This document shows, one piece after another, positions 1,481-41,757 of a stretch of DNA of 64,000 bases. The position numbers were made by a program, and so were the translations under genes. The number at the start of each line of letters is the position of its first letter. Positions within the stretch are counted from its first letter, which is position 1. The notes below the pieces were generated by a model that did no database searches, was not told the DNA's origin, and saw nothing but the letters and a program-made list of their open reading frames with translations. Source of the DNA: Petrolisthes cinctipes. Taxonomy: Eukaryota > Arthropoda > Malacostraca > Decapoda > Porcellanidae. The DNA is taken from the NCBI GenBank assembly GCA_033782935.1, contig JAWQEG010000261.1, positions 333,501 to 397,500 on the forward strand, written 5' to 3'.

Positions 1481-1488
1481 TGTTCAGT

Positions 1489-1490
<2 letters not shown>
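1481..1490 (-). repeat. Junction J1: target 10-mer between A1 and A2
   Basis: TGTTCAGTCA (TGACTGAACA in element sense) lies exactly between the 5' end of A1 and the poly(A) tail (T run on +) of A2. The same 10-mer sits at four other element boundaries at 18185, 24114, 35683 and 41748. I read it as a target-site duplication of a fixed insertion target. Confidence 0.85.
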
Positions 1491-1521
<31 letters not shown>

Positions 1522-1649
1522 CCTTTCTTCCTGGCCTATCGACCTTGGTGTTGGTCATTAAGGCCTTTTAATTTATTTTTATTTATTTTTAATTTTATTT
1601 ATTTATTAATATTTTATTTTTAAATTTTTGCATATTATTTTTATGCATA

Positions 1650-1710
<61 letters not shown>

Positions 1711-2033
1711 GTTATTATCATTATTATTATTATTATTATTACATTTTAACTAAACCATATACAATTTTTGTTTTGTACATTCATACAAATAAAATTTCTT
1801 AATCTTACATCCTAGCTAATAAACTAATCTATGTACCTACTCAACCAATAGCTAACTAGACTAATACCTATTCCAGCCAATCGCTAAACCTAGACAGACA
1901 AATCGCTAAACCTATATTAGACAATCGCTAAACCTAGCTAATACATCATAATATACAATATATACAACACATAATTTATAATATTCATAATTGAAAAATA
2001 GTCATACAAAATGGTAACAATAGTAATAAAAAG
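1491..2033 (-). other. A2 3'UTR: poly(A) tail, terminal hairpin, (AAT)n tract and short tandem repeats
   Basis: The stretch starts with about 31 T (the tail). A hairpin follows at 1533-1565 (GGCCT/AGGCC outer stem, GACC/GGTC inner stem). Next come an AT-rich section and an (ATT)n microsatellite at about 1648-1741. At about 1870-1945 there are three near-copies of a roughly 20-bp unit containing AATCGCTAAACCTA. The same arrangement recurs at 18195-18727 in A3, so the simple repeats belong to the element. Confidence 0.8.
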
Positions 2034-3804
2034 TCACATCACTCTGATCAGTTCGGTCTCCCTCAAGAAAGTCATCAATTTATCAGTCACACCACCATCC
2101 CCATCACCTAAGAGAGCTGAGAGTGTGAAGGGGACTTTTACTGCATCGCAGTAACTTATGAGGGAAGCACGTTCCCCCACAAATCGCCGACAATGCAGGA
2201 TGATATGACTGATAGATAACACCGCATTGCAGGTGTTACAATGCGGTGGAAAACGTTTGTCTATATATGGTTCTAGGTGTGTTATCCTGGTGCAGTTGGT
2301 TCGCACTCTTGCGAGGATTCTTTCTTCTAGTCTATTGGGCTGGTTGGCAGTGGCCCAATTACCCAGTTGAGGCTTGATGGTAGAGATGTTTAGTCTGGTC
2401 CACTGACCTTGCCACAGAAGATGAATTGATTTCTTTCCGAGGGATAGACACGACTGTAAATCACGAGGGACGTCCCAAGTAACCTCGAGCTCTACAGCCG
2501 ATTTTGCAAGTAAGTCTGCCCGTTCATTGCCATAAATACGACAATGCCCGGGCACCCAGATCAGAGTGAAGGACTTGTTGCATAAGTGCAACTTATTAAT
2601 GATGCGACCCTGGATTTCATTAGAAATAGTTTGACATGAGTTAATTGCCTGAAGGGCTGACTTGGAGTCTGAGAAAATGACTATTGAATTATGACGAGAA
2701 TTTAGTGCATAGTCTATGGCTTTGTCTATAGCGAAAAGTTCTGCTGTAAACACAGATGTATGTATCGGCAATCTGTACCTATGTTCACATTCACTCGACC
2801 ATACACTCGCACCCACACTTTCATCTGACTTGGAGCCGTCAGTGTACACGTGATGAGACCCCAGGTGACTGCGGATGATACCACCAAACAGGTGGTGTAT
2901 CTCCAACTCCGGCGCCTTTTCTTTTGATGATGGTAACCACGATGTGTTGACGCCGAAGTTGGGTGTCTCCCACGGTGGTATCTCGTTGATGGTAAACTTG
3001 TCGCAGTCCCCAAGGTCTATTTGTAGTTGTTCGGCTAGCAGGTGGAGGCGCACAGCCAGTGGCCTCCGTCTTCCGTGTTGAAGGTGGTGATGTTGTTGGA
3101 GGGAGGCACTGGCTACGTTGCCGATCTCCGACTTCCGGATCGTTGACATAGCGGTGTTGAGTGCGAGTTGATCCCGTCGAAGTCGGAGAGGAGGTATGTT
3201 CGCCTCCACCTCCATCCTAGCTACACGTGTACACTTCAGAGCTCCCAAACACACACGTAAACATTTATTCTGAAATACATCCAATCTTCCTAGTGTTGTA
3301 TCTGATGCCGATCCATACACCTGTGAGCCATAGTCTAGCTTTGTACGAATAAGGGTCTTATACACCATTAATAAAGATTTCCTGTCGGCTCCCCATGTCG
3401 TACCTGATAGGTACTTAAGGACATTTAAAGGTTTTTCACAACGAACAAGCAAATTATTAACATGATGTGTAAAATTTAATCTTTGGTCAAAATGAATTCC
3501 TAAAAATTTAACAGAATTATGAAATGGTACCGGTTGGCCATCTAACGTTACGTTAATTTGAGGTACTCTACGTTTACTGAAAATTACTCCGGCACACTTA
3601 GGCACGGAAAACTTAGAGCCCCACTGTAAGGCCCATTGGTGGACAGAATCAAGCGCTGCTTGAATCCGTCTTACTGAAAACTGTGCATTACGTGACGAGT
3701 GCCACATTGCACAATCATCAGCATACAACGAGTATTTAAGATTCCTGGGAACTAGAGCTGATGATAGAATATCATTGATCATGATGTTAAAAAGTGTTGG
3801 ACTA
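2034..3804 (-). pseudogene. A2 ORF2 remnant: C-terminal RT, RNase H and zinc-finger region
   Basis: This is the 3' half of an I-like ORF2. It is open from the RT (SPTLFNIMINDIL, then the catalytic YADD near 3730-3719), through the RT thumb and the RNase H domain (YTDGSKSD, AELFAI, FSDSKSA, GNERADLLAKSA) to a C-terminal Cys/His motif (CNTCNAVLSISHIILHC), ending in TGA at 2034-2036. The endonuclease and N-terminal RT are lost through the internal deletion at 3804/3805. The open frame continues upstream into out-of-frame ORF1 sequence, which is a product of the junction and not a real start. RNase H is intact here, whereas A3 has a frameshift in it. Confidence 0.9.
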
Positions 3805-4473
3805 AGGCGTCGCGCACCTGCCACACACTGGAGAAGAAGCCTTACAAGTACGATTTCCGTGTCCATAAATCTGACAGTTCAAGCATCTAAGAGGGTTGGG
3901 GATAAAGGGTCTTACTTTAACGATTTCATAACCTATTTTGACAGTTTCAGGAAGTGAAACTTTGCCAAAAGTCAAAATTAGGGTTGCAGTCTTCTTCCTT
4001 ATACCATCCTTTAATCGTGTAATAAATCTAGCGTCAATTATATCTTGATTCTTCATTTCCTCATTTATTTCTGTTTCTTCCATCATCATTAAATCCCTAC
4101 AGGTGATTACTCCCCTGCAGGAATTCATGGCTTGAGGAATCTTGGCTTCTACTTCATAATTGTGGATCTGACGTAATTTTAGCAAAGTGGCTACTTGTTT
4201 AGAATTAAATGTTTTGACTAAGAGATCTCCAGAGGCAAGTTTTTTAACAGATTCAACCACACCAGCCCAGCCATCAATTACCTTTTGAACAATGAAAGGA
4301 TTGAGGCCGGCTAGTGGGGCCGAACCAGTGGCATGTAACATAACAAATGAGGCATTTTTCACGTCTATGTCAAGGGGTGTTCGAGTCTCGTATCGTCCGT
4401 CGTTTCGTGGTGGTGGTCGGTCATGGCCGCCTCCTCCGCTATACGGAGGAGGGGTTGGGAGGGAAGGCAACAT
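3802..4473 (-). pseudogene. A2 ORF1 remnant: N-terminal part up to the second zinc knuckle
   Basis: This is the N-terminal half of family A ORF1, from the ATG at 4473 (MLPSLPTPPPYS) to CGRCATP, where the deletion junction creates a stop. The first CCHC knuckle (CLNCQIYGHGNRTC) is complete and the second is cut. The frame also stays open upstream into the gypsy LTR beyond 4541, but that part is foreign DNA. In A3 the same region belongs to a 436-residue protein. Confidence 0.88.
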
Positions 4474-4536
4474 AGTAACCACTTCCCCCAAGATGGGGGG
4501 AAGTGGGAAGAGGAAAAGAAAACACCAGATAAGGAT

Positions 4537-4541
4537 AATAC
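4537..4541. repeat. Target-site duplication of the gypsy element (left copy)
   Basis: AATAC here is repeated at 17866-17870 on the other side of the element. Removing the element and one copy gives the uninterrupted 5'UTR sequence found in A3 near 23786 (GGATGATACCAGCCC, differing by one base). A 5-bp duplication is usual for Ty3/gypsy integrases. Confidence 0.9.
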
Positions 4542-5753
4542 TGTGACGGTGATGTGAGAATGATAGATAATGTAATTTATAATATGACAATTACAACTTA
4601 CCTTGCCCGGTTAATTTATGATCTCGTTGGTTGGCTGCAGCGAAGAACAAAAAGTCGGGGATTAATTCCCCGTTTTAGGCCCCATCCACCATACACATAA
4701 TAATTTTTTATGTTAAGGGGTTCTTCCCGATATATGTGTATTTATATAGATAACAAATCTACTGGTGTATTCAAACAACCAATTGCAAATTTCTATATTT
4801 ATTCAACTCCAGTATGCCAACATGAATAAATCAATTTCACACACACACACACACACACAACTCACGCTCACGCAACGCTAACTAGCTACTCGCTCTCGCT
4901 ACGTCTCGCTCTCGCTCACGTGACGATAGTCTAGGTTACGTTAACACTGTAGTAATTCTATCAATTGTTACGCAAGTTGGAATATTTTTCTAATGTCTCA
5001 CACTTTAGAGTCTCACAACACACTCGTAATTTTCTTCAATGCTATGCAGCTTCCCCCTCACCTAATTCAGTTACTGAACCAGCGTCAATGCAACTAGTCA
5101 GTATACAACTGTAAAGCCTTGTGAATCGCGTAATATACAACGAATTCGGCGTTTACGTTGATCACTCCCCACTGCACACGTGGAGGATTGATCTAGGTAA
5201 GGGAAGCTGACGATACGAGTGTGTTCCCTTCGAGTGTGTCCTGTTCCAACTGACCCCAATTCTCCATCCTTAACTGGAGAATGTAAGTTCAAATTTCTAC
5301 TGACTCCTCCTCCTATCTGTGTTCGTTTTTTCCTAACTGGCTACGATTTACATTGTACCCACTTATACTTTAGTTATACATGCAATTTCAATTTACCTAT
5401 GGCGTACTAATAATTCCCGATAATCTCCCTCCACTTCACGATCATTTGCAATACCATAAGTTACCCTGGGGTAGCATAATTATTAATACAAATTGTAATT
5501 TACGTACGAACACCTTATAGGACAAGATGTGCAAATTCAGTTGAAACATGACCCTTTTTCCCATTTTCTACCTGGTCTATTTTTGCTACTACCTGCGGAT
5601 TAACTAGCTGCACCCACAACTTAACCCACTCCTGTCTCATGGATGGAATATTCCAGAACCTTCTCTAGAACATTCTATATTGACACCAGTATGGAATTTT
5701 CCAACTCTCTGTAATTCAAATTACGTCACGAGTATTATGTCTGACTCGTGACA
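4542..5753 (-). repeat. 3' LTR of the gypsy element
   Basis: This LTR is about 1.2 kb, begins TGTGACGG, ends CGTGACA (TG...CA ends) and is nearly identical to 16660-17865. It contains a (CA)n tract near 4840 and a CTCGCT-rich stretch near 4890-4920. Differences from the other LTR include the (CA)n length, a small block change near 5040 and scattered substitutions. The 60-odd-residue open frames inside it are not convincing genes. Confidence 0.93.
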
Positions 5754-6449
5754 TTCGCCCACACAAAGAGACATTGCTCTATGCAATGTTTAATAGATTC
5801 GTGAAGTGGTAACGACGCCCTTGCATGTATAACTTTAAAATAACAATTCATCCACACTTCACTTATTCTTGTATGTGTCAATTTCTATCACCAGTTACGT
5901 GTTCATTTTTGCCAATGAGTGGAAAACTCCCAACAGTTACTTTAGCTTTTCAATCTTAGGAAGAAACTCCGAGACAAGAATGAATGAACCTGGTAATTTT
6001 TGCTCAGTACAATTTGTACACATTTAAGCAATATATAAGTGTGGTGTATGTAATGCATTGTGTATTTGTTACATAATATGTAAGAAAAATGCAATAATAT
6101 CTCTGGAAGGCAATATATATATTAGTGAATTATCCGAGCCTTGGATCAGAGTAAACCGCTAGAATCTGTGTCTTGGATAAGGTTACACAAAATACTGCAA
6201 TAATAATTCTGGAAGGCAATATATTGTTAGTAAATTATCCGAGCCTTGGATCAGAGTAAACCGCTAGAATCCGTGTCTTGGATAAGTTGCACAAAATACA
6301 ATACATAGAACATCGGATTTTCCCAACACCCTAGGAACCCCCTTGATCTGAGTCGCATAAGACTCGTGCTCGTTGCGCTCGGAGAGGTAACAATTTACGA
6401 GCAATTCGACCCGGAGGATACTTCTGCCAGTCGATCTACGCATGAATAT
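5754..6449 (-). other. Gypsy 3' non-coding region between RNase H stop and 3' LTR
   Basis: About 700 bp without a convincing ORF. The end next to the LTR reads GTGTGGGCGAA in element sense and is a candidate polypurine-type primer site, though it is not a clean purine run. It also contains the tandem duplication at 6091-6299. In a conventional gypsy element integrase would follow RNase H here, and none is present. Confidence 0.7.
6091..6299. repeat. Tandem duplication, about 105 bp x 2, in the gypsy 3' region
   Basis: Two adjacent units (about 6091-6196 and 6197-6299) share GCAATAAT, CTGGAAGGCAATATAT and a long common block containing GAGCCTTGGATCAGAGTAAA. They differ by a few substitutions and small indels. 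Confidence 0.85.
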
Positions 6450-8257
6450 TTACTCGGTTAACTCTCCTTCAAGCAATTGTGACATAAGGTCCGCCCCGAC
6501 ATTAGCACTTCCCTTTATGTATCGCACAGTGAAGTTGAACTGTTGCAGATAGAGGGCCCAGCGCATAAGTCGTGCGTTGGCGTTCTTGGATGTACGCAAA
6601 CTCTCCAGAGGCATATGATCGGTTTCTAACACAAAATTATCACCATACAGATAGTAGTAGTATTTCTTAATACCTTCTACTACTGCCAGAAGTTCCTTTT
6701 CCACTGTACTGTAATTTTCTTCAGCAGACTTCAGTTTACGACTGTGATATGCAACAGGGAATATTTCCCCATCCTTCTCCTGGAATAGGACTGCACCAAG
6801 ACCATACTGAGAAGCATCAGTCCTAAGTATAAATGGCCGTTGGTTGTCAGGCAACTGCAAGATTGGTTCCTTGCAAAGAAGATTCTTAAGTGAAACGAAT
6901 GCTTCTTCTTGTTCTGACCCCCATGAGATTTTATTAGGAGCATTCTTCCTTAAGAGCTCACTAAGTGGATGTGCAATGACAGAAAAGTTTGGGATAAACT
7001 TACGGTAATAACATGTAAGACCCAAGAATGAGCGCACCTGTTTCTTTGTAACGGGTCGTGACGCATCCTTGATTTTCTTTATCTTGTCATTCTGGCACCC
7101 ACAACGTCCCCCACCTACAGTGTGACCCAAAAATTGTACCTCCTTCTGAAACAATTCACACTTAGATGGTTTGACTGTCATGTTATATTCCTGCAGTCGT
7201 TGCAAGACAGCTTGCAATATCACAATGTGCTCCTCAAACGTGGTTGAGTGCACGAGAACATCGTCAACAAAAGCTTCAACCCCTTTAATGCCATGTAATA
7301 CTTGACGCATGACACGATTAAACACGGCGGGAGAATTAGTGAGACCAAAAGGTAGTACCTTGAAATGATACAGCCCATTTGGCGTGGATATAGCCGTGAG
7401 GAGACGACTTCGTTTCTCCAGTGGTATCTGAAAGAAACCCTTAGCCAAATCCATCTTAGAGAACACCTGAGAATTGCTAATCCTAGCAAAAATCTCTTGC
7501 TGATCACACATGGGTTCTGCATCGACCCTAGTGACAGCGTTGACACGCCGGTAATCTCCACAAATGCGTACACCACCGTCCTTCTTCCGAACCACAACAA
7601 TAGGGCTGGAATAAGACGAGTCCGACCTTTCAATAATACCAGCTGCTTCCATGTCATTAATTTCCTTACGTACTGTATCAATCAGCCGTACAGGAATAGG
7701 ATATGGTTTCACCCTCACTGGTGTGTCGCTCGTAAGCTGTATCTCATGACAGGCTACGTTAGCAACAGCAGGCCTGTCAGAGAACACACGTGAATATTTT
7801 GCCAGTACCGCATTGACTCTTGCAAGCTGGTCTGGTCTTAAATTCTCCGAAACGGAGACCTCAGCCACTGTCTCACCTTGACGAGCTTCAGCCGTCTGCG
7901 GAGTATATCCCTCGTCACCCTCGGGGATTACCACAGCAGCGCTAACCATGTCTACTGCTGGGGAAAAATGACCACGGACTAGACTTAACACTTCACTCTG
8001 TTCTGAGGTGATGTTACAACAGCCTGCCCCAACTGTGGTAACAATGGAAGTACACCCCTGTTGGGTGGTGTAATACTCCTTAAGCATATTAATATGGAAC
8101 CGCTTGGCTTCACCTTTGATTTTAACTATGTAGTTAAGGTCATTCACCTTCTTGACTACTTCAAAGGGACCCTTCCACTGAGCCAACAACTTATTATGAG
8201 CTGTTGGTAACAGAACGAGACACTTCCCCCCTACCTGTAGCGTTCGGAGCTTAGTTT
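6450..8257 (-). pseudogene. pol: Gypsy pol, C-terminal part: integrase GPY/F end, reverse transcriptase, RNase H
   Basis: The frame is open from the B1 insertion point (8258) to the TAA at 6450. It starts with the integrase tail (QWKGPFEVVKK, the GPY/F-type motif, then FHINMLKEYY). After a linker of about 100 residues comes a Ty3/gypsy RT: EIND.EAAGIIERS, SPIVVVRKKDG, FSKMDLAKGFFQIPL, LPFGLTNSPAVF and the catalytic FVDD in EAFVDDVLVHS. RNase H follows (LRTDASQYGLGAVLFQ, YSTVEKELLAVV, LETDHMPL) and ends at GADLMSQLLEGELTE. Nothing follows RNase H. The original pol frame is cut by B1 and by an upstream stop, so this is a fragment, although its domains look intact. Confidence 0.92.
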
Positions 8258-8269
8258 TCCTATCATAGT
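8258..8269. repeat. Target-site duplication of LINE B1 (left copy)
   Basis: TCCTATCATAGT is repeated at 13929-13940. The last T merges with the poly(T) run, so the true length is 11 or 12 bp. Joining the flanks restores the pol reading frame through the motif YYDRK, which shows B1 inserted into a then-continuous pol. Confidence 0.93.
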
Positions 8270-8460
8270 TTTTTTTTTTTTTTTTTTTTTTAAATTCATT
8301 ACGCCGTAGCGTCAGTCAATAGGCAGACAACAGTACACAAGGGTAAGCGGGACTCACGAGAACCCAATAACCACATACACACACAAGCACACACACATGC
8401 GCACACACACTCACATCACGAAAACATAACAGAATGAAGCACAAGCATACAGACAAATAT

Positions 8461-11400
8461 TTACATCATGACCGCCTTAAATCCACCAAAACGAGGGTGG
8501 CGCACCAGAAGTTCCTCCAGAACCTGATGGTTCAGCAGGTGTCGACAAACCACATCAAGTGGCAGGCCCTGGGGCAGCAAGTGTCGGACAGTGGGGCAGG
8601 CTAGGCAATAGTGCTCTATAGTGTTAGCCCGAGGCGCTCGACACAAGCGACACTCAGTGAAGGGAGGCTCACCCTGCATCCCAGCAACCTGCCACGGTGG
8701 CCGGTAGCCAAGCCTCAAACGAGCAGAGACTACATTGTGCCTCCGAACCATGAGGCCTCGACGACGGTAGGAATATTTGTGATGGCAGACAGTCTCGTAA
8801 TGGGTGATGGAGATGCTGAAGGGCCTCTCTGCATCCCTGCGTCGCCGTACAGGGAGGAGAGCGGCGGAGCGGACTTTAGAGAGGTAACATGTCAGGGAGA
8901 GAGGACGTCCAGCACCATGAGGAGGCAGATGGCAGGCTTCCTTTGCGAGTCTGTCAACTGTACCATTGTGACATAAACCTACATGGGATGGCACCCATAA
9001 AAATTTGACAGTCAAGTTACGGTGACGCAATAAGGACAAAAACGATAAAATCTGCTGAATAACAGTAGAGTGTGTGGGCTGAACACTAGAGAGGGAATGA
9101 AGGGCAGGTTTGGAGTCACAAAAAATTGCAGCATTCACTCCACGTTGACAAACAACACTAACAGCATCCAGAATGGCATACAGTTCACACAATATTGAGC
9201 TAGAGTGGTTACAGAGACGACGGCCAACCCAGCCCCCTGGAGGTGACTCCAGGTCAGGCGAGAAAACAGCACAACCTGCTGCACCATCCACCTGCAATGA
9301 GCCATCAGTGTAGAGGCAGTATGGATCTGTGATGGAGGAAGTCACTGTTTCTATGTGTTCCAGAGCCAACTGCTGCTGTAGAGAAGGCAGCTCCGACTTG
9401 GAAGTAGGTGTAAAGCTCACATCAGGTGTTGGTAGCATCCATGGAGGGGGCCCTGGGGGGACGTCTGCAACCATTATATCTATATTAAGACCACGGAGCA
9501 CAGAGGAAACAGACCTTATAAGAGTACGTCCAGCAGGCAGTATGGGAGGGACCGGGTAGTTTGGTCTAAGAGAAGTCCTGACTAACGGAGAGTAATGGGG
9601 TGAAAGATGTGGGAAATGGAGGCACTTGACAGTGAAGCAAGTAACATTAGAATAAATTCTCTCCACTAATGGGGGAAGACGCAACTCACGCTGCATGTTC
9701 ACTATCCTGGTCGACATTGGACAGCCGAGAATAATTCTCATTGCTCTATTTTGAAATTTTTCTAAAGTTTCCAGAGTAGCTCTAGGAAGTTGAATCAGAG
9801 CAGGGGAAAGGTAATCAACAACTGAACGGATAAAAGCAATATAGATGGTCCTGGCTACTGGGATGGAGATGCCCGAGGAGTTGTTAGATAGCCATTGAAG
9901 TGGTGTAAGTCGGCGCTGGAGACGACCCAATAAGTCCTGGACAATGGGATGGTCTTGAGGTCTGGCAGGGACAATCGGCCAAATATTGACTGGCGCACCC
10001 AGGTAGCAGTACTGGGAACACATGGGAATGACAGTCCCTCCAATGGTGAACACTGGCTGAGCTTGAGGAAGGCGGCAGGTGAATATTCTGCTCTTATCTG
10101 GGGAGACAATAATGCCACAGTGAGAGGAGACCACAGAGAAGGAGTCAAGAAACCGCTGGAGATCCCTTGGTGAGGTAGAATGAACACAGATATCATCAGC
10201 ATAGCACGTAATTGTAGTTCCAGGAATATCAGGGAGAGAAGTGAGCAGCCGATGCATCAGAATATTAAATAACAATGGGCTGAGAACACCCCCTTGAGGC
10301 GTACCAAGATGAAAACTGCGCAAAGGACTGAGTGCACCACTGAAAAACACACGGGAGGTCCTGTTACTCAGGTAGCCCCGAATCCACCATAGTAGATTAC
10401 CCTTTATCCCAAAGTCAACCAGTTGATCCAAAATAACGTCTCTATTAGCAACATCGAAGGCACTTCGAAGGTCAATGAAGGCCACCACACTGTCCCTGGA
10501 AAGGCGAGAGTACAGGTCGATTAGGCAGTGATGTGTGCTCCGCTGGGGAAGGAAACCAAACAGCCATGGAGAGAGGCGATCCTGCAGTCTGTACATGAGA
10601 CGATTGAGTAAGATTCTCTCCATAACCTTACAGAAACAGGAAGTAAGGGAAATAGGCCTGAACTTTGCAGTGCCAGGCTTAGGGATGGGTATTATTGTGC
10701 TGCTGGTCCAGGCTCGTGGTACACAACCGTCACGAAGACAAAGATTGTACAGTCGAAGTAGAGGGTTCCCAGGAACTTGTTGAAGTAGGCGCAGCACAGC
10801 ATAAGTAATACCATCATCACCAGGGGAAGAAGCTCTACCCCGAATGAGAGCACGGCGCAACTCCTCCTCAGTTATCTCCTCTGCATCATCATCATCATCT
10901 TGTAACAGAGCAGACATTAGACGTAGCCGATGGACAGCAGCACGGGAAGCGAGTGCATCTTGTATGTGGATGGGTAGACTGGCTGGGGTAGATTGTTCTG
11001 ACCAGGCATCGACAAGTTGTTTGGCATAGTCGGCAGGAGTGTGATGACGAGCAGTGGCCGGTGTCTTTTTAACAACCCGACGGATGAGGTGCCACATAGA
11101 AGCCACACTTGTTTGCTGGTTGATGCTGTCCGTGAACCGCTGCCAAGACTCAGTGTGAGCACAATCCTGCAGGGCAACTAAAGCGTCCCTAGACATCTGG
11201 TAACGATGGAGTAGGTCAGGGGTTGGGTTGGCTTGAAACAGTAGGCCATCACGTTCAGCCTCCTCCTTTGCCTCCTGTATACGTGCATCCAGCGTCCAGG
11301 AGTGGGCAGTATGGCGATGCTGGAGGTGTGGCCGGGAGACGTATAGCCTATAAAAGTCATGAGTAGCAGATACAAGATCAGAGTACAACTGTTCAGCTGA

Positions 11401-12816
11401 TGATATGTCAAATGTAGGGAATACATGGGCCATAAATAAGATGTAAGTCGGGCAATATTTAGGGGGCACAGCAATACGCAAACGAGTGGCTGAAGCACCT
11501 GACCCAGCAGTTAGAGAATAATGAAACCGAAGAGCAATGTGATCAGAGAATAAGTCTGGCACGGAGAAGCACTGGACCTGAGATGCTATCAGGCCAGACG
11601 AGAGGATGTAATCCAGAGTACCTCCCCTGCAATGAGTGGCACCACCAGTGTCCCAGTGTGTCAGATGATGCTTGCGGATGTATGAAAGGAGACGAACACC
11701 ATTACGATTAATAGAGCCAGTACCATCACCCAAATCAGAATGCCGAGCATTAAAATCTCCCATATACACCATACCACGCACTGTTGGAGAAGGAAGAGCC
11801 TCAAGAGTGAGTCTAGCTGGGGCAGAATAGACATTACATAGTTGGAGTACTCCATTCCCAGGTAGAACCTCAAATAGCTGAAAGGTCATGTCAGGATCAG
11901 TGGAGGTACGGAGAAGGCGATGTGGCAAGGAGCTATGTATGTAAGTCAGGAGACCATTTCTTACCAGATGAACATATGGCACATAACCTGAGAGGGGAGG
12001 AGCTTGCCCAAGAGCGAGCGGCCGTCCTGGAAATGCTTCCTGGAGAAAAATAACACTGGGATGATGACGAAAAACATAGGCCTTGAGTTGAGTGAGCTTA
12101 GCATAACTGGTGATACCACATACATTCCAGGAGATGACATCCAGCCGGCAATCACTAGCGAACTCTGTATTTGGAGGTAGAAGTCCGGTGAGTGGGGGCA
12201 GATGAGCGACCTGGAGAAGAAGATGGACCAGGAGAAGGGACTGACTCGAAAAGCTTTTCAAGGCGAGATGCAACAGTATCCATCTTTTCGGTAAGGGTAG
12301 TGACAGTTGAGATGATGGCCTGCTGAGCCTCGACCAAGGTGGAGAGTTTGGAGTCATTGGCAGCCTGAGCGGCAACCAGCCCATCAATCCTGGCTTCAAG
12401 GGCAGAAAAGCGGTTTTCAAGAGCCGTACATCGTGCCATGAGGGTAGCAACAGACTTGCGGAGGGCCAGGTCTGGAGGTGAGGCAGGGTTGGTAGGAGGA
12501 GCAGACTGGGGAGGTGGTGGTGGTGGTGGTGGTGGTGGAGGCGGAGCAATAGTAGAGACACGAGCCTGGACCTTACGTCGAGTACATCCATGCCACACGT
12601 TAACCCCTGGCTGAAGGCATCGTGGACACTTCCATCGAGACGTATCTTCACGAGGTGAAGGCTCAGAGGTGGAGGCAGCAGGACGTGATGGTTCACCCCT
12701 GACAGGACACGTCTTGGAATCATGGTCGGCCGCACACCATGCACACTTTGGCCTGGCAGAACAGTACCGGGAGATATGCCCAACTCCCCAGCACCTGTAG
12801 CACCAAGGCTGGTCAT
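8461..12816 (-). CDS. B1 ORF2: endonuclease, reverse transcriptase, RNase H
   Basis: This is the LINE polyprotein that nicks the target and reverse-transcribes element RNA. The frame is 1451 codons. The first 220 or so overlap ORF1 in another frame and look like Leu/Pro/His-rich shadow sequence. Recognisable protein starts at the endonuclease (LDVISWNVCG, residue about 225; VIFLQEAF; MGDFNARHSDLG; SDHIALRFH). RT follows (IIPIPKPGTAKFRPISLTS, about 715; AFIDLRSAFD; GTPQGGVLSPLLFN; catalytic YADD, about 870). RNase H comes next (CLYTDGSLQVDGAAG; CELYAILDAV; FCDSKPALH), then a Cys/His motif (CRLCRAPRANTIEHYC). No stop or frameshift is seen. No ATG lies between the end of ORF1 and the endonuclease, so how it starts is unclear. 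Confidence 0.92.
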   Translation of the reverse strand: MTSLGATGAGELGISPGTVLPGQSVHGVRPTMIPRRVLSGVNHHVLLPPPLSLHLVKIRLDGSVHDAFSQGLTCGMDVLDVRSRLVSLLLLRLHHHHHHHHLPSLLLLPTLPHLQTWPSASLLLPSWHDVRLLKTAFLPLKPGLMGWLPLRLPMTPNSPPWSRLSRPSSQLSLPLPKRWILLHLALKSFSSQSLLLVHLLLQVAHLPPLTGLLPPNTEFASDCRLDVISWNVCGITSYAKLTQLKAYVFRHHPSVIFLQEAFPGRPLALGQAPPLSGYVPYVHLVRNGLLTYIHSSLPHRLLRTSTDPDMTFQLFEVLPGNGVLQLCNVYSAPARLTLEALPSPTVRGMVYMGDFNARHSDLGDGTGSINRNGVRLLSYIRKHHLTHWDTGGATHCRGGTLDYILSSGLIASQVQCFSVPDLFSDHIALRFHYSLTAGSGASATRLRIAVPPKYCPTYILFMAHVFPTFDISSAEQLYSDLVSATHDFYRLYVSRPHLQHRHTAHSWTLDARIQEAKEEAERDGLLFQANPTPDLLHRYQMSRDALVALQDCAHTESWQRFTDSINQQTSVASMWHLIRRVVKKTPATARHHTPADYAKQLVDAWSEQSTPASLPIHIQDALASRAAVHRLRLMSALLQDDDDDAEEITEEELRRALIRGRASSPGDDGITYAVLRLLQQVPGNPLLRLYNLCLRDGCVPRAWTSSTIIPIPKPGTAKFRPISLTSCFCKVMERILLNRLMYRLQDRLSPWLFGFLPQRSTHHCLIDLYSRLSRDSVVAFIDLRSAFDVANRDVILDQLVDFGIKGNLLWWIRGYLSNRTSRVFFSGALSPLRSFHLGTPQGGVLSPLLFNILMHRLLTSLPDIPGTTITCYADDICVHSTSPRDLQRFLDSFSVVSSHCGIIVSPDKSRIFTCRLPQAQPVFTIGGTVIPMCSQYCYLGAPVNIWPIVPARPQDHPIVQDLLGRLQRRLTPLQWLSNNSSGISIPVARTIYIAFIRSVVDYLSPALIQLPRATLETLEKFQNRAMRIILGCPMSTRIVNMQRELRLPPLVERIYSNVTCFTVKCLHFPHLSPHYSPLVRTSLRPNYPVPPILPAGRTLIRSVSSVLRGLNIDIMVADVPPGPPPWMLPTPDVSFTPTSKSELPSLQQQLALEHIETVTSSITDPYCLYTDGSLQVDGAAGCAVFSPDLESPPGGWVGRRLCNHSSSILCELYAILDAVSVVCQRGVNAAIFCDSKPALHSLSSVQPTHSTVIQQILSFLSLLRHRNLTVKFLWVPSHVGLCHNGTVDRLAKEACHLPPHGAGRPLSLTCYLSKVRSAALLPVRRRRDAERPFSISITHYETVCHHKYSYRRRGLMVRRHNVVSARLRLGYRPPWQVAGMQGEPPFTECRLCRAPRANTIEHYCLACPTVRHLLPQGLPLDVVCRHLLNHQVLEELLVRHPRFGGFKAVMM

Positions 12817-13627
12817 TATGAAGTTTCCTCACCTCACACGGTGGAAGACAAGGGAGGAAATCAAAGGAAATCTCATTTGGAGGTGGATCGGGTTGACTCC
12901 AGACAACAACAATACGGCTAATGGGGGAACCATCTTGGAAAAAACGACGGGCAAAGTACACACCAGGGTATCCTTTGGCAAGTTTCGGGTCAACATCAAT
13001 AGGAAAACGGGTGAGGATGTAGCTGGGGAACTTACGAGGCCTCTCAGGTGAGTCATCAAGAATGAGAGGCAGAGATAACAATTCACCAGCCTTCACTCTA
13101 TCAATGATGTCCTGACGCTTCCTAGAGATGTAGACAAACCGGGAGGTGACAGCAGCCATCTTGACTTCAGCCAGTTCACGCTGCAGCTGGAAGGCCCTGT
13201 TGACATCAGACAACCAACGCAGCTTTGTGTCCGTAGATGGGTTCCCAGAGAAGGAGAGTTTGACATAGGCATCTCTCTGGGCAAAAGCAGGAAGGTTGGA
13301 CGAGGGCAAGGAGTTGGTATACAAAGAAGAAACACCAGGGTGAGGCAGAGAAGGTACGTCGTGCACAGCTGAAGCACCCTTGGCAGTCTTGGCAGCTGGA
13401 GGTAAACAGTCCACACCATCGGAATCCTGCGAGGAGTCGGACGAGGCATCAACAGGTCGCTTGGTAGAGGTTGAGGAGGTGGACGGCTGCAACCTGTGCT
13501 GCGGAGTGACCGAGGAGAGGGGGGGAGGGTTGCGAGAAGGCAGCTCAGGCCAGTGATCCTCAATTGGAGACTCGTCTTCCTCCGACATTGCCAAGTCGGC
13601 CTTCAAGCAGGAATCCGCACTCTCCAT
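12155..13627 (-). CDS. B1 ORF1: gag-like zinc-knuckle protein with C-terminal coiled coil
   Basis: This ORF1 protein (490 residues) probably coats element RNA. I chose the ATG at 13627 (MESADSCLKADLAMSEEDES); four codons upstream a TTG also fits the frame. The order is: acidic N-terminus; Ser/Pro-rich region; conserved core (RFPIDVDPKLAKGYPGVYF); three Cys-rich knuckles (CYRCWGVGHISRYC, CAWCAADHDSKTC, CPRCLQPGVNVWHGC) near residues 270-350; a run of 12 Pro; then a heptad-like stretch (residues about 400-460) rich in Leu, Ala and Thr. The zinc knuckles precede the likely coiled coil. The frame is intact and the sequence is close to B2, B3 and B5. Confidence 0.92.
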   Translation of the reverse strand: MESADSCLKADLAMSEEDESPIEDHWPELPSRNPPPLSSVTPQHRLQPSTSSTSTKRPVDASSDSSQDSDGVDCLPPAAKTAKGASAVHDVPSLPHPGVSSLYTNSLPSSNLPAFAQRDAYVKLSFSGNPSTDTKLRWLSDVNRAFQLQRELAEVKMAAVTSRFVYISRKRQDIIDRVKAGELLSLPLILDDSPERPRKFPSYILTRFPIDVDPKLAKGYPGVYFARRFFQDGSPISRIVVVWSQPDPPPNEISFDFLPCLPPCEVRKLHNDQPWCYRCWGVGHISRYCSARPKCAWCAADHDSKTCPVRGEPSRPAASTSEPSPREDTSRWKCPRCLQPGVNVWHGCTRRKVQARVSTIAPPPPPPPPPPPPQSAPPTNPASPPDLALRKSVATLMARCTALENRFSALEARIDGLVAAQAANDSKLSTLVEAQQAIISTVTTLTEKMDTVASRLEKLFESVPSPGPSSSPGRSSAPTHRTSTSKYRVR

Positions 13628-13928
13628 CAGGCCAGGCAAGGCCTAGATGGAAAGCAAACAACAACACAAACAACTAAACACTCAATCAGCCAGGGACACA
13701 CACACACACACCCACACACACACAGACAATCACAACAAAACTATACACAGAACCACAACAGACAAACAACACCAGCAACACCACAGAAACAGCAACACAC
13801 AAACAAGAACTCACAAACACAAAAAACACAAACAAGAGCTCCAAAACAACACAAACAACAATACAAACGAGAATGGAGGCAGAGCGCCACGAGTACGTCC
13901 ACACTCCACCTGTTCTGGAGCGAGACTG
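13628..13928 (-). promoter_or_regulatory. B1 5'UTR / probable internal promoter region
   Basis: About 300 bp starts CAGTCTCGCTCC and is very rich in GTT/TTTGTG in element sense, with a (GT)n tract at about 13696-13728 on +. LINEs of this kind normally carry an internal promoter at the 5' end. CAGTC at the first base resembles an arthropod initiator. The promoter role is inferred. Confidence 0.5.
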
Positions 13929-13940
13929 TCCTATCATAGT
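13929..13940. repeat. Target-site duplication of LINE B1 (right copy)
   Basis: TCCTATCATAGT matches 8258-8269. The gypsy integrase coding sequence resumes here. Confidence 0.93.
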
Positions 13941-15399
13941 AGGACTTCTGAATCTCCTTTGCTTTAGATAACTCCTGCTTTGCAATCTCGCAGGTTTGCT
14001 GTAATCGTTCTGCCAAATCAATTACATAAGAATAAGTGGTTTTCACCACGGGATCCGATTCCTCATCGTCCCAAAGTTCACGTAGAACCTGAAGTGGTCC
14101 TCGAGCAGGTTTACCATACACTAACTCGAATGGACTAAATTGCAACGATGCCTGAGGTGCTTCGCGATACGCGAACAGTAGTGGCGAGATATACCTGGAC
14201 CACTCCCTAGGTTGTTCTACTGCCATCCTCCTCAACATTTTCTTGAGAGTACCATTAAACCTCTCACACAACCCATTACACATTGGATGATAAGGTGTTG
14301 TCCTCAACCCTTTAACTGAGAGTAATCTCCACAATTCCTCCATCATCGCGGAGGTAAATTGACTGCCTCGGTCGGACAATACCTGCTTTGGTATGCCGAC
14401 ACGACAGAATATATCCAACAAGGCTTCAGCCACTGTAGTGGCTTCTATATCACGCAGAGGCACTGCTTCAGGCCATCTGGTCGCGAAATCCACACAGGTA
14501 AGAATATACTTGGCACCGTCCGTAGCCCTCGGAATAATCGGTCAAACAATATCAACCGCTACTCTCTCAAATGATTCTGAGATTAGCGGTAGAGGTTTTA
14601 GAGGTGCGGGCTTCACCCGACCCCTGTCACACGTTTTCTGACAAACGTCACATGACCTCAACAATCTCCCTATCTCTCTCCCCATACCTGGCCAATAGAA
14701 ATGAGACTGAATCCTATCAATTGTTTTCCTCATCCCCATATGACCCCCTAATATAGCATGATGACCCAGGGTAAACACAGCCTGTCGGTATTTCTCTGGT
14801 ACGAGAAACTGAACCCTCTCTTCCCCATCAGGGTTTACTGTACGTCGGTAAAACCTGTTTCTCCTCCTGACATAACTGGTTACAATACCATGTCGATCTC
14901 TACTCTCACCCTCAAGTGCCTGCTTGCGAACAAGTGCCAATGAAGGGTCACTTGCTTGCTCTGCAATTACATCCTCGCAATTGACGAGGTCGGCGGCAGT
15001 TGTCACCTGAAGTGGAACAACTGTTTTCTTTGCATGCGCCATACCCCTGGTTACAGCAGCTGCACCAGTCTGTGTGGAAATTTCCACTGAACATGCATTC
15101 TTAACCCCTGGTATATTTCCTATTACCAAATCTGACACAGGATTTTGCATGACTGCTGCAATTACCTGGCCTGTATAGAATGGACTCTCCACTGCAATTT
15201 TAGCAAGAGGATAGAGCCTCCTGGTACCATCAATCATAGTGATAGTTACCTGCTCCCCTGTAAAATCATTAGAAGCAACTAAACCATCAGCGACACAACA
15301 CCCCGATGACCCATTATCTCGAAAGACTTCAACAGATATTCCGTTAACAATTCCAGGACAAATATGAAAACCAGACTTACCTTTCGAGACTCCTGTCGC
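13941..15399 (-). pseudogene. pol: Gypsy pol, N-terminal part: protease and integrase
   Basis: This continues from gag in the same frame after a TGA. First comes a retropepsin-like stretch (ISVEVFRDNGSSGC; the usual Asp-Thr/Ser-Gly reads Asp-Asn-Gly). Integrase follows: zinc-binding HHCC region (LGHHAILGGHMG ... CDVCQKTC), a TGA right after FERVAVDIV near 14542 where the first catalytic Asp lies, then DFATRWPEAVPL, VLSDRGSQFTSAMMEE (second Asp) and NGLCERFNGTLKKML (catalytic Glu). The frame reaches YYDR, where B1 interrupts it; the GPY/F end resumes at 8257. Two in-frame stops plus the insertion disable it. Lying upstream of RT, it gives the element its unusual order. Confidence 0.9.
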
Positions 15400-15405
15400 G
15401 TTTAG

Positions 15406-16530: not shown

Positions 16531-16636
16531 TTTTAATTTATTTTCTATCGTTTCGGTTGCCTTAATTTCTGGACAGTTATACTATCTACTCGTGAAAGTG
16601 TGCGCGTGTGTGACTGGAATTAATACAACGAATCAG

Positions 16637-16655
16637 GTCCCACGTTTGGGCGCCA
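16637..16655 (-). other. Primer-binding site
   Basis: In element sense this reads TGGCGCCCAAACGTGGGAC, starting four bases after the 5' LTR. It resembles the 3' end complement of tRNA-Lys (the TGGCGCCCAACGTGGG type) with one extra A. The tRNA assignment is from memory of that motif and needs checking. Confidence 0.75.
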
Positions 16656-16659
16656 AATA

Positions 16660-17865: not shown

Positions 17866-18184
17866 AATACCAGCCCTAATTAACTAATGTTTGAGATCAA
17901 CCTCTCAACCCACACTAAGGTGGTCCGTCTGTGTCTATTCACACCCAGAGCTATCAGTGGGGGAGTCCACCATAGGTAGGAGGCAAAGTTGATCTCAATA
18001 TAAAGATATAGACACCTACTATATCTACTACCAGCTATGGAGGGAATGAATACTAGCTAATCCTAGTGGTCACCAAAAGGGCGAAAAAAAAGAAACTACT
18101 GCCGGTGCGGCAGGCCCTGGCAGCTAGAGGAGAGAGCATAAAATCATACAACCTCTCTCTCCACGACCCAGTCTCAAAGTCCCC
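17866..18184 (-). mobile_element. LINE A2, 5'UTR portion beyond the gypsy insertion
   Basis: This continues A2 (1491-4541) after the gypsy element. It matches the 5'UTRs of A1 (about 1170-1480) and A3 (about 23795-24113), including CTACTGCCGGTGCGGCAGG and the terminal GTCTCAAAGTC. It ends at the shared 10-mer at 18185. Confidence 0.92.
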
Positions 18185-18340: not shown

Positions 18341-18401
<61 letters not shown>

Positions 18402-35681: not shown

Positions 35682-35692
35682 GTGTTCAGTCA
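35682..35692 (-). repeat. Junction J4: target 11-mer between C1 and C2
   Basis: GTGTTCAGTCA sits between the C1 5' end and the C2 3' end. Together with the identical 11-mer at 41747-41757 it gives C2 a perfect 11-bp flanking direct repeat. Confidence 0.88.
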
Positions 35693-38800: not shown

Positions 38801-39685
38801 ATTCCTCTCACACAGTACCCTGCGGCAATCTGGCGTCCACCATGGAACTCTATGCTTTGCGCTATCTACCGAAGTCTTAGGAATTGTTGCCATTGCGGCT
38901 TTGAGGATATTATCTTGAATATTATTTACTTTATCATCAATGGTTTCTCCAACAATTTCAATATTGACACCCTTTGTGAAGGACACCCAGTCTGCTTTTT
39001 TTACGTTAAATTTAGGTGCTGAAGGCTCTTTAATAGTGTCGCTTTTAAATTTAATCACAATAGGAAAATGGTCGCTTCCCAATGAGTCATCAATGGGTAG
39101 CCACTGGCAAGAGGCTGCAATTGATGGGGAGACCAGAGATAGGTCAAGAACGCTAAAATTACCAGTATTATCATCAACTCTCGTCGGACTACCGTCGTTC
39201 AGAAGAACCAAATTGGAATCACTGATTAGCCTAGCCATCTGTTCCCCCTTTCTGTCATCCTGCAGGGAACCCCATAACGTATGATGAGCATTAAAATCAC
39301 CTACAATTAATTTTCTACAGGGCAGACTGTCCTGTAGATCAAAAACATCATCATAAGTTACTGTATCAGGAGGACAGTAGACAGAACAGATAGTCAGGTA
39401 GGTGCCACCGAATTTTACTCTGCAAGCGACACTTTCCAGAGGAAAATTACAGGGCACATCAGTGAACGGGAGGTTATGGCGGATGTAGATTGCCACTCCA
39501 CCTCCACCCCTCCCCCCACGGTCCCTCCTAATTAACTTGTAGTTCCGAAGCTGAACAACCTCGTCTTCGACTTGGTCGTTCTGATGAGTTTCCTGAAGGG
39601 CAATAATATCGGCAGCGTAAGAACAAGTCAAAAGTTTAAGTTCATTTAATCTAGCTCTAAGACTTCGACAGTTCCATTGGAGTAT
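35882..39685 (-). CDS. C2 ORF2: endonuclease, RT, RNase H with expanded linker
   Basis: An open frame of about 1267 residues down to the stop at 35882. Endonuclease at residues 1-220 (LQWNCRSLRARLNEL, IVGDFNAHHTLWGS, LGSDHFPIVIKF). RT at about 470-800 (SYRPIALTSCLCKVMER, FLDIEKAYDMTW, GVPQGSVLSPTLF, YADD near 37690). The Pro/Gly/His linker at about 855-950 has an extra repeat unit compared with C1. RNase H starts at about 1030 (LYTDGSKTDECVGAG, AELFAI, FTDSLSSLQ, NEQADILAG), followed by a C-terminal CTSCNTILSINHLLIFC. The position homologous to the family A ORF2 ATG is ATA (39685-39683), two bases after the ORF1 stop, and no ATG precedes the endonuclease. Start is therefore assigned by homology only. 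Confidence 0.88.
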   Translation of the reverse strand: MLQWNCRSLRARLNELKLLTCSYAADIIALQETHQNDQVEDEVVQLRNYKLIRRDRGGRGGGGVAIYIRHNLPFTDVPCNFPLESVACRVKFGGTYLTICSVYCPPDTVTYDDVFDLQDSLPCRKLIVGDFNAHHTLWGSLQDDRKGEQMARLISDSNLVLLNDGSPTRVDDNTGNFSVLDLSLVSPSIAASCQWLPIDDSLGSDHFPIVIKFKSDTIKEPSAPKFNVKKADWVSFTKGVNIEIVGETIDDKVNNIQDNILKAAMATIPKTSVDSAKHRVPWWTPDCRRVLCERNRAYRLFKNRISDENFRKYKLARARARRTIRQAKRDSWRCFVSSINSETSISQVWSTVRKLNKKKISNKTTNITFNNINYDEPRDIANALARQFSFASSSENYHPAFLPIKEASELQHIDFATGDELDYNSDLTMQELVQALGACSGTFPGPDEIRYEMIKHLYHDSMVKMLQVFNEIWRGHTFPNSWHFAHVIPIPKGGGDPRSTSSYRPIALTSCLCKVMERIVNRRLLHFLNSRNLLVDEQCGFRKGRQTLDQLVNLEVQIQEAFAKKQFLIAVFLDIEKAYDMTWRHGLLRKLYAMGLRGNLPFFVKNFISDRTFSVKLFSDTVTFSDIFVQANGVPQGSVLSPTLFLCMINDILPAPPRNLKYSLYADDCAIWHSSCNAEFSATRIQLALDLIHNWGLQWGFKFSVRKSVGVIFTHRKKPDVRLTMGINPLPIQNSTKFLGLHFDSRLTWRVHVSQLKIKCLKALNLLKCISGTQWGADRKSLLMLYKSLIRSRVDYGSIVYGSASESVLKGLDVVQNACLRVCLGALRCTRIERLEVESQVPPLRLRRDQLLLVYCAKKSRVPSHLPGNALLRQQHPGGHGARPLAEGPSRPSGNPCAPGGTGVRPMGTRPQVQVPGEPSHPPGNALVRHLQPGGHGDRPPEGPSYPPGRRTAPEGTGVRSLRARLHDLVECVGIELSTIDSLVLVNIAPWETPPFTIVDSWLPGVKSRVPEVEVHQRFREIIVQHLSYFHLYTDGSKTDECVGAGVWSTECQLRFRLPIHTSIFIAELFAINKALDFALSTTHDRIVIFTDSLSSLQAIKSLNTTNNEIQGNIISKLFCANKSIKLIWVPSHYGIYGNEQADILAGSTVDLDISIVRTDLRCFVSLIKSRIHLLWQRQWTRLDIRNKVRTVIEPWATSSWRSRRDEVVLARLRVNATWLTHLEPYINRNFPPQCTSCNTILSINHLLIFCIDYENQRSKIKQYFQL
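36830..37095 (-). repeat. Coding minisatellite in the C2 ORF2 linker
   Basis: Two diverged copies of a unit of about 55 codons, each with a P-G-N-A-L core (SHLPGNALLRQQHPGGHG and SHPPGNALVRHLQPGGHG) and a P-G/E-G-T-G-V-R core (APGGTGVR and APEGTGVR). C1 has a single unit (about 25200-25350). The size change is 165 bp and in frame. Confidence 0.85.
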
Positions 39686-39687
39686 GG

Positions 39688-41064
39688 TTAGCGCGAAGAT
39701 TTTCGCTGTTTATGGGGTTTCTTGGAGCCTTGTTCGTCTGGCCGAACCTTTTTGTGCTGGGAGGGAAGACCCTCTTCCTCCTCTGCACTTCCCGGAAACC
39801 TCCCGCGGGCAGGTTTCGCGACGGTAGTCTCCATCGCCTGTTCCTCTCCATGAGGTACAGAGCCAGTCCTCGAACGGCTCGTCTCGCGACGAACCGGACG
39901 ACTCCCGGATGTAGGCTTCATGGGAGTCACCTGAGCGAGAACATGAGATTTTGAAGCTGATACGGTATCATCAGCTTTGTGGTGCTTCTTTTGCTGGGTT
40001 GATTCAACAACTTCTAATTTCTTTGTCAAACTTTCTACTAGCAACGTTAATTTATTTACAGTATCCTTCAAGTCTTTAATTTCATTATCTTTAGCTTGGA
40101 TAGCCACGTTAACATTTGCTGTAGTTACAGGAGCAGTGGTGCCAGTCATAGCTGCAGCATAGGAAACTGTGGGAGTTTGGTTAACCCCCTCCACCTTCCT
40201 CTTTGCCTCACCATAACTAACATCATGAGCCCTCATGTATGCCATTGCTTCAGTCTCCACTTTAAGGCTCCTGCAGTCACCTGCACTTGCCTCGTGGGGG
40301 CCGCCACAATTAGCACACCTGAAGACTGTCTCTGAACACAACTCAGTCTCGTGTCTACCTGCACATTTACCACAAGTGAATGAATCTTTATTAAAGCACC
40401 TCAATGCTGTGTGTCCGAATTTCTGGCAACGGAAACAACGCATCGGTTTCTGAATGTATGGTCTAACGTGAACAATTTCATATCCAATCTTTACAGTTTC
40501 CGGAATCTGTGCTGAAGCAAAAGTCAGGAAACACAAGCCAAATTTCTCTCTCTTGTTCTCTCTCATCCTGGTCATACTTTGAACATCAACAACGCCTTGG
40601 TCCTTCATTCCTTCCAAAATGTCAGCCTCATCCAGAGCGGCCAAATCCCTATGGAAAATGACGCCCTTACAGGTATTCGGCCCCACTGGAATGGTGGCTT
40701 TCACCTTAAAGTTATGAATTTGCGTCAGTTTAAGGAGATCCTTAACCTGGGATGCCTTCAGTACTTTTACCAGGATACTACCATCACGCAACTTGTTAGC
40801 AGCAGCAAGACTGCCACCCACTTGACCATCAAGGACCTTTTTGACGATAAAGGGGTTAAAGTTTTTGAGAGACTGACCCTCATCAACACATCTAATATTT
40901 ACATAGCGAGCATTCATTGGAGGAATTTTAACATCAGGTTGTCTTTGTCTGTCTGCCGTAGGGGTTCCATTATTGTCAGCCATTGTCCTAGTTTGGTCCT
41001 TGGTCGTTAACCTCCCTCCTTGAGGAGGAGGGAGGCTAGTCGGGGGTTCATCCATCCGGGGCAT
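39688..41064 (-). CDS. C2 ORF1: gag-like zinc-knuckle protein
   Basis: An intact 458-residue protein from the ATG at 41064 (MPRMDEPPTSLPPPQGG). Order: Pro-rich start, conserved domain (ARYVNIRCVDEGQSLKNF, NPFIVKKVLDGQVGG, GVIFHRDLAALDEADI), IPETVKIGYEIVHVRPYIQ, knuckles CFRCQKFGHTALRC, CGKCAGRHETELC and CANCGGPHEASAGDC (residues about 215-270), a heptad-like stretch (DNEIKDLKDTVNKLTLLVES, about 335-360), and a basic Ser/Arg/Lys tail. It is clearly homologous to family A ORF1 and probably binds element RNA. The stop TAA is followed after two bases by the presumed ORF2 start. Confidence 0.93.
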   Translation of the reverse strand: MPRMDEPPTSLPPPQGGRLTTKDQTRTMADNNGTPTADRQRQPDVKIPPMNARYVNIRCVDEGQSLKNFNPFIVKKVLDGQVGGSLAAANKLRDGSILVKVLKASQVKDLLKLTQIHNFKVKATIPVGPNTCKGVIFHRDLAALDEADILEGMKDQGVVDVQSMTRMRENKREKFGLCFLTFASAQIPETVKIGYEIVHVRPYIQKPMRCFRCQKFGHTALRCFNKDSFTCGKCAGRHETELCSETVFRCANCGGPHEASAGDCRSLKVETEAMAYMRAHDVSYGEAKRKVEGVNQTPTVSYAAAMTGTTAPVTTANVNVAIQAKDNEIKDLKDTVNKLTLLVESLTKKLEVVESTQQKKHHKADDTVSASKSHVLAQVTPMKPTSGSRPVRRETSRSRTGSVPHGEEQAMETTVAKPARGRFPGSAEEEEGLPSQHKKVRPDEQGSKKPHKQRKSSR

Positions 41065-41746
41065 CGGACTACGTCCGAACCCTCTCCTCGCACACTCACC
41101 TACCTCCCTTAACTATTGTATCAACCCCCAAAAATGGACAATAATTTAGGGAATAAAAGTTACCTTTACTCGCCCCCCCCTAGTGGTAGCCTGGCGGCGT
41201 TCTCCAGTACCAGCTAGGGGATCGGAGTTTGTGCGGAAGGAACTTCCCCACCACCGAACCTGCCAAATGCAAGGGGTGGTGTAGTAGGAACCCACCTCCC
41301 AAGCGAATACCGTTGCTCAGCCAAGAGACAACCGTAGGCCCAGGAGGTCGCACGGAAAATATAGAAGAAAAAGTAGTTCAAGAAAAAGAGGTGCCCAAAT
41401 GACGCACCAGACTACTGGGCCCCCCTACCACAGGGTTTCCCCTGAGGCAGTGAGTGCTGCGGATCTGGTATGGGGAACAACTAACTACTATCTACCATAT
41501 ACTACTGGTTGTCCTCCAGCAAAAAACAAAACACTGAAGGTGTACACAGCAGTGCAGCAAAACGCTGCGAATTTACTTTACTTAATTACTTTACACAAGG
41601 CAGAGAAACAACAGAGTACTGCCGGTAAGAGGCCTCGGTACACCAAGGTAACTCCACGAACAATACTGTAGTCTGTTGTTGCTATGCACAACGAGGACGA
41701 GGTCTGGACACAACAAAGTCTGGACGCATAATGGGCTGGCTCAGCC
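41065..41746 (-). promoter_or_regulatory. C2 5'UTR and 5' junction
   Basis: Near-identical to 35010-35681. At the 5' end C2 has GGCTGAGCCAGCC between the 11-mer and CATTATGCG, whereas C1 has only CA. The extra 13 bases may be untemplated or host-derived. No coding sequence is supported. Confidence 0.55.
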
Positions 41747-41757
41747 GTGTTCAGTCA
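41747..41757 (-). repeat. Junction J5: outer copy of the LINE target 11-mer
   Basis: GTGTTCAGTCA, identical to 35682-35692. This is the right-hand edge of the five-copy array and the boundary to non-LINE DNA. Confidence 0.88.

Follow-up and report, generated by a model that had tools for sequence, protein, structure and literature searches.

Two LINE families of the crab Petrolisthes cinctipes form head-to-tail arrays and very probably insert at predicted initiation sites of TATA-box promoters

The long interspersed nuclear elements (LINEs) R1 and R2 and the telomeric LINEs of the R1 clade insert recurrently at one place, where copies may come to lie in tandem, and they read a fixed DNA sequence. 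Tx1L of Xenopus is a LINE whose fixed site lies inside another mobile element, for which it is specific. The I factor and other RNase H-bearing LINEs of the I/Jockey group have two open reading frames (ORFs), an ORF2 with the order APE endonuclease (EN), reverse transcriptase (RT) and RNase H, and an A-rich or short-repeat tail. To our knowledge, the site-specific LINEs all read a DNA sequence, and we know of no target choice of the kind described below in the I/Jockey group. In the Utopia paper (PMC4640811), most reported target-specific LINE families fall in the early-branched, Tx1 and R1 groups. Promoter-associated retroelements are treated in another source (PMC5911963): Ty3 of yeast integrates specifically at the start site of RNA polymerase III (Pol III) genes and interacts with TFIIIB, the ORF1 protein of TRE5-A interacts with TBP, Brf1 and Bdp1, and NLTR-A, whose domains include RNase H, is found 2-6 bp before the tRNA coding sequence. 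Here we analyze a 64-kb stretch of Petrolisthes cinctipes DNA (contig JAWQEG010000261.1, positions 333,501 to 397,500; "the window" hereafter) that carries a head-to-tail array of two LINE families, A and C. The published assembly is built from HiFi reads and comprises 1.49 Gb in 9391 contigs (PMC10849366); our genome-wide counts cover 1,484,209,624 bases in 9385 contigs. We conclude that A and C are very probably APE-type LINEs that insert at predicted transcription initiation sites of TATA-box promoters, and that reuse of these sites builds the arrays.

The five elements of the window lie head to tail on the minus strand. In element sense, the order is promoter flank, T, C2, T, C1, T, A3, T, A2, T, A1, in which T is the 10-mer TGACTGAACA, or TGTTCAGTCA on the plus strand (Table 1). 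A sequence-only reading of the window had placed this 10-mer at all four element junctions and at the outer right edge of a same-strand array, as is the case: five of five sites are exact and on the plus strand as TGTTCAGTCA, and the window holds no further site with 0 or 1 mismatch. By chance, about 0.1 exact sites are expected (128,000/4^10) and 6.56 with up to one mismatch. The 10-mer had also been said to lie always between one 3′ end and the next 5′ end, which is true of four sites, whereas the fifth, at 41748, adjoins non-LINE DNA. The last 1.25 kb of C1 is about 7% different from C2 and the five 5′ junctions all differ; thus, the array is not one duplicated block. Moreover, A and C are 51-63% identical in EN-RT pieces and 35% identical in ORF1 and are therefore separate families, and both of these earlier claims stand.

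The non-LINE DNA at the first target copy belongs to a repeat of about 700-714 bp that runs from TGTCACGTACC to GTTGTAACA and, by eye, has 4-bp flanking repeats in three groups of solo copies, features that identify it as a Ty3/gypsy-like long terminal repeat (LTR). Some copies are preceded by a purine-rich tract (by eye), and ORFs with RT and RNase H lie just upstream of some. From 341 candidates, the best 40 copies were all read; they are 92-100% identical, and the window's own is among them. The site is empty in 14, one example reading TATATAAG, 14 bp, TGACTGAACTCAGTGACGAG, and filled at the same place in 26, by A in 17, by C in 7 (including the window's) and by a third element in 2. By subset, the first 30 copies comprise 13 empty sites, 10 with A, 6 with C (window's included) and 1 with other sequence, and the remaining 10, read by eye, comprise 7 with A, 1 with C, 1 with other sequence and 1 empty. 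5′-truncated copies occupy the same place, with truncation points that vary between LTR sites (A positions 1994, 2410, 2697, 3502 and 5060; C positions 2233 and 2802). Judged from the TATA box and a start-like TCAGTG, the insertion point is the predicted U3/R boundary of the LTR. A histone-gene promoter, suspected from CCAAT and TATA boxes, was rejected: there was no Rfam match in the window and no histone in the scanned ORFs, and the flank is an LTR. In the targeted LTR element (L026, L027, L028 and similar loci), RT-RNase H stands shortly before the purine-rich tract and LTR; the ORFs scanned gave no integrase match behind it, and the domain order is perhaps unusual.

The 10-mer had been read as a fixed target, a view open to refutation by unrelated flanks at other copies, and such flanks were found. 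A 17-mer from the A 3′ end occurs at 529 exact places in the genome (control, 0), and TGACTGAAC, with 0 or 1 mismatch, is absent from the 100 bases after all 20 A 3′ ends that come first in contig order. Other arrays repeat other duplications: the array on contig C30, in which A and C are also mixed (L082), repeats TTTCAGTRG as its junction, and C40 and other arrays repeat TTTGAAGTCG. A fixed 10-bp target was rejected as a rule for A on these two grounds; tested for A, the copies do not share the single target of an R1-type element. Among 100 listed A 3′ ends, 46 same-strand neighbor gaps are shorter than 40 kb, 24 of them 5.85-6.0 kb and 5 about twice that, and one opposite-strand pair lies within 40 kb. 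TGACTGAACA is the target-site duplication of one promoter and not a fixed target.

At many sites, the duplication lies about 21 bp downstream of a TATA box. A 27-mer from the A 5′ end occurs at 642 exact places (control, 0). The motif TATAWA lies 15-45 bp before it in 129 matches, representing at least 88 different A ends among the 100 of 129 that were listed, compared with 9 matches at 7 ends for the interval of 60-90 bp; patterns read backwards gave 0 matches. After 6 same-end overlaps were dropped from 58 listed strings, a simple similarity cut grouped the 52 left into 34 clusters by their upstream sequence, and with one value per cluster, the TATA-to-A distance was 22-42 bp, with a median of 35, or of 32 without the trailing purine run. 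When the A 5′ ends are taken in contig order, the first 40 comprise 28 that are internal to arrays and 12 with other upstream DNA (L127 placed by eye); a TATA-like box stands 33-42 bp upstream of 8 of these 12 (again L127 by eye; L122 and L124 are one promoter). Four promoters have a second junction that reveals the duplication. With distances counted from the initial T of TATA, it spans 22-32 at the LTR and in C36 and 21-31 in C28, and at six C40 junctions it starts at 20-24 and ends at 29-33 bp. The duplicated sequences are unrelated: TGACTGAACA in the LTR, GCATCGCGGG in C36, TTTCGAAGGC in C28 and TTTGAAGTCG or parts of it in C40. Because the TATA distance is near constant while the duplicated sequence varies, position rather than sequence defines the target. 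A keeps a fixed spacing to a promoter element across unrelated sequences, and C does so at LTR sites and in shared arrays only. We conclude that A inserts at predicted start sites. A and C are like R1, R2 and telomeric LINEs in recurrent insertion at one place and in tandem copies, but the sequence is free and the TATA distance is fixed. Unlike the case of Tx1L, the LTR is one of many promoters.

In the C36 array (L088, L109 and L110), two neighboring targets were apparently used, judged by eye: GCATCGCGGG and, further downstream, CTCAGAAG. At L073, also by eye, the end of an A copy adjoins TTTCAGTCTC; this looks like the 5′ terminus of a B-like LINE and is perhaps a start site as well.

Insertion duplicates the site and leaves it open to re-entry. 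Expected 3′ ends of first elements were taken at 14 of the 17 filled sites of the first 30 LTR copies (without L018, L019 and L027, the last of which was obtained separately). Three of the 14 had no recognizable 3′ end. In all 11 others, the tail was followed by a copy of the site, which matched that LTR's own variant exactly in 7 and with one mismatch in 4, and then by a next element, named by eye as A in 6, C in 4 and like the third element in 1. Thus, of the proposal of site-specific insertion that recreates its target, the duplication, the re-entry and the mixed arrays hold, as do truncated copies at the target; what fails is the identity of the target with the sequence TGACTGAACA.

The array of the window extends about 28 kb to its left on the same contig (C261), giving 7 elements with 7 exact 10-mers and 1 near copy. 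Leftward, A1 ends about 11.8 kb beyond the window edge and is followed by T, a full-length A4, another T and C3; C3 has lost 3513 bases from its 5′ end, and its first base, C position 3514, directly adjoins the 10-mer. The C3 tail is followed by TGACTGAATA, one mismatch from the 10-mer, and then by the other part of the LTR, so that the 7 elements sit between two halves of one LTR. A telomeric array, by this flanking, is unsupported. B LINE sequence occurs on both sides of the array-bearing LTR, which was probably inserted in a GT-rich stretch of a B LINE. Private substitutions in the four A copies (2268 columns) rise from the promoter outwards, with 1 in A3, 7 in A2, 20 in A1 and 45 in A4; C3, the distal C copy, is 96.5% like C1 and C2, whose similarity to each other is 97.6%. 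In this one array, the gradient of divergence fits growth at the promoter-proximal site. Bearing on the question of an assembly artifact, arrays of this kind are present on other contigs as well, and in the annotated P. cinctipes protein Pcinc_024981 a C ORF2 is joined to an A ORF1.

Several findings weigh against insertion at promoter start sites as the full account. The independent events are fewer than 40, since several rows of the LTR sample are copies of one another: L029, L030, L033 and L035-L037 are near identical over up to 3.3 kb, as are L043-L045, and five filled sites (L065-L069) have one variant target in common. Four of the 12 noninternal A 5′ ends have no TATA box at the right distance, three of these four being one repeat. 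For C, the support consists of 7 LTR sites and the shared arrays. In the alignment of A copies, 16 further columns show other patterns, and the gradient comes from one array and four A copies. Finally, neighbors with the same 5′ junction or truncation occur (L024/L051, L025/L052, L026/L053 and L038/L058), and A4, outside the window, and A1 have an identical 5′ junction. These shared junctions and truncation points indicate that part of array growth takes place by tandem duplication or re-copying in place, beside insertion. Arrays formed solely by unequal exchange from one insertion would explain such neighbors, but a single array has both families in alternation, the 5′ junctions in this array mostly differ, a truncated C begins exactly at the target inside an A/C array, and the same place is filled in 26 of the 40 LTR copies. 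Tandem duplication is insufficient by itself and, as the sole origin of the arrays, very improbable; it is likely a secondary process.

Classical specificity, in which the endonuclease recognizes TGACTGAACA itself, would account for this 10-mer or a near copy at the junctions of the array and in many LTR copies, but it is contradicted by its absence, at up to one mismatch, from 20 of 20 A 3′ ends elsewhere and by unrelated duplications at the same TATA distance in other arrays. As a general rule for A it stands refuted; at most it might persist as a local preference, and it is extremely improbable. Insertion might instead be loose, with copies persisting mainly where a promoter can transcribe them; a LINE behind a promoter could leave more offspring, but such selection would neither put dead 5′-truncated copies at the same place nor keep the TATA distance so narrow, and we consider it very improbable. 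The main rival is direct recognition of the TATA box by a protein of the element rather than by TBP or the polymerase complex, with the endonuclease cutting at fixed distances. A near-constant TATA distance with variable cut sequence speaks for direct reading, and no host factor would be needed; against it, known promoter-targeted retroelements use initiation factors (PMC5911963), and we regard direct reading as rather unlikely.

Insertion at promoter start sites very probably proceeds as follows. One cut would lie about 21 bp and the other about 31 bp past the first T of TATA, and the roughly 10 bp between them, whose sequence is free, would be duplicated. As the TATA box would be kept and the 10 bp duplicated, the site would be reusable, so that re-entry would build mixed head-to-tail arrays, which would partly grow by tandem duplication as well. 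The promoter-proximal copy would end up directly behind a foreign promoter, which in the window is at the LTR U3/R boundary, and that promoter may transcribe it. If the predicted start sites are real, a TATA box beginning at about −31 would place the duplicated bases at about −9 to +1. The region from about −9 to +1 is the one melted in the open complex of RNA polymerase II (Pol II). The simplest reading would be that the initiation complex or its open bubble guides the endonuclease, or that the cuts are made at the edges of the complex. A further-reaching version, which we put forward tentatively as possible, is that assembled initiation complexes of Pol II are what a LINE clade seeks out, with cuts at the bubble edges (about −9 and +1), such that the duplication is the melted DNA, full-length copies lie at about +1 of a foreign promoter, the site stays usable, arrays form layered records in which the newest copy lies next to the promoter, and a short nonautonomous element with a cold-shock-domain ORF and the common 3′ hairpin rides along.

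Precedents for guidance by an initiation complex are Ty3 and TRE5-A, both of which rely on TFIIIB at genes transcribed by Pol III (PMC5911963). Like A and C, Ty3 inserts at a transcription start site; unlike them, it is an LTR retrotransposon of Pol III genes, whereas A and C are LINEs, in arrays, at TATA promoters that look like Pol II promoters. TRE5-A and NLTR-A of social amoebae resemble A and C as non-LTR elements placed by position relative to genes, but in the same source they use Pol III genes and are listed in the L1 group, and TRE5 lies 40-54 bp away in opposite orientation. Promoter-targeted LINEs found in print use Pol III genes; judged by titles and the starts of abstracts, searches confined to one open-access library and to the terms used gave no LINE aimed at TATA promoters or Pol II start sites.

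Both families have the features of LINEs: an ORF2 with an APE-like endonuclease and RT, a 3′ tail, target-site duplication and 5′ truncation. RNase H is present in both, after RT as in the RNase H-bearing I-like group, and the two ORFs, the domain order and the tail type are those of the I factor group. The C2 ORF2 is 95% identical to a P. cinctipes protein over 891 residues; the A3 ORF2 is not fully open, with one in-frame stop and the RNase H part in a different frame. The nearest solved endonuclease is that of TRAS1 (E 1.6e-8 for C and 4.3e-10 for A), which we take to be an R1-clade element. A tree that included no named I or R1 ORF2 references puts A and C in two supported lineages near each other, so targeting may predate the A/C split. 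Searches for related loci gave none among viral contigs and, among bacterial and archaeal contigs, one distant match, in a symbiont scaffold.

The third element is a 1.45-kb insert (L048:92-1542) with the same 10-mer on both flanks. It stands first at 2 of the 40 LTR sites (L027 and L063) and once behind an A copy (L061), and it has an ORF with a partial cold-shock domain (E 3.1e-7). No RT was seen within the 1.45 kb, which suggests a nonautonomous follower that likely uses the machinery of A and C. A, C and the third insert have a 3′ hairpin in common in which 93.8% of 48 cells pair (6 sequences; slid controls, 7-46%) and 3 of 8 pairs change on both sides. Its covariation score was reached by 2 of 500 shuffles, with the structure drawn from these same 6 sequences.

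Other features accompany the array (Table 1). C2 carries 12 extra 5′ bases (41736-41747), which start with CGGCTGA, 7 letters found in the promoter just before and into the target, and which were possibly copied from it. Inside A2, a 13.3-kb element (4542-17866) has 1.2-kb direct repeats that are 98.6% alike and was itself hit by a B LINE. Copies of LINE B lie at 8269-13929, 28555-34218, 42060-47719 and the right end of the window; LINE B has an ORF1, an ORF2 with EN and RT but no RNase H match in Pfam, and a GT-rich 3′ untranslated region, and its insertions have flanking repeats, such as CCTATCATAG and CCTGCACTTG.

Table 1. Features of the array and its landing site (window positions; target copies 1-5 are TGACTGAACA in element sense)
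Feature	Position	Strand	Remark
Promoter-side part (U3) of Ty3/gypsy-like LTR	41748..42038	-	Array landing site, target at its end
CCAATCAG box	41795..41802	-	First base 45 bp before target
TATA box TATATAAG	41772..41779	-	First T 22 bp before target
Target copy 1	41748..41757	-	Promoter-proximal target/duplication
LINE C2	35693..41747	-	6055 bp
C2 ORF1	in 39688-41112	-	
C2 ORF2	in 35882-39709	-	EN, RT, RNase H
Target copy 2	35683..35692	-	
LINE C1	24124..35682	-	Split by LINE B at about 28555-34223
Target copy 3	24114..24123	-	
LINE A3	18195..24113	-	5919 bp; ORF1 in 22417-23805
A3 3′ end	18195..18300	-	Hairpin GGCC-TTAAT-GACC...GGTC-GATA-GGCC and A tail
Target copy 4	18185..18194	-	
LINE A2	1491..18184	-	Internal deletion and 13.3-kb insert (about 4542-17866)
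Target copy 5	1481..1490	-	
LINE A1, 5′ part	1..1480	-	Remainder of A1 left of window
Target copies 6-8, A4, C3	left of window		

If the reading is true, the distance from a TATA box sets the place of these LINEs to within a few bases, which would represent a new way of target choice. It would explain how such elements obtain a promoter, and the means by which an APE endonuclease locates a promoter complex would become testable, which bears on targeted gene insertion. The hundreds of copies would then constitute a map of promoter start sites in a crab.

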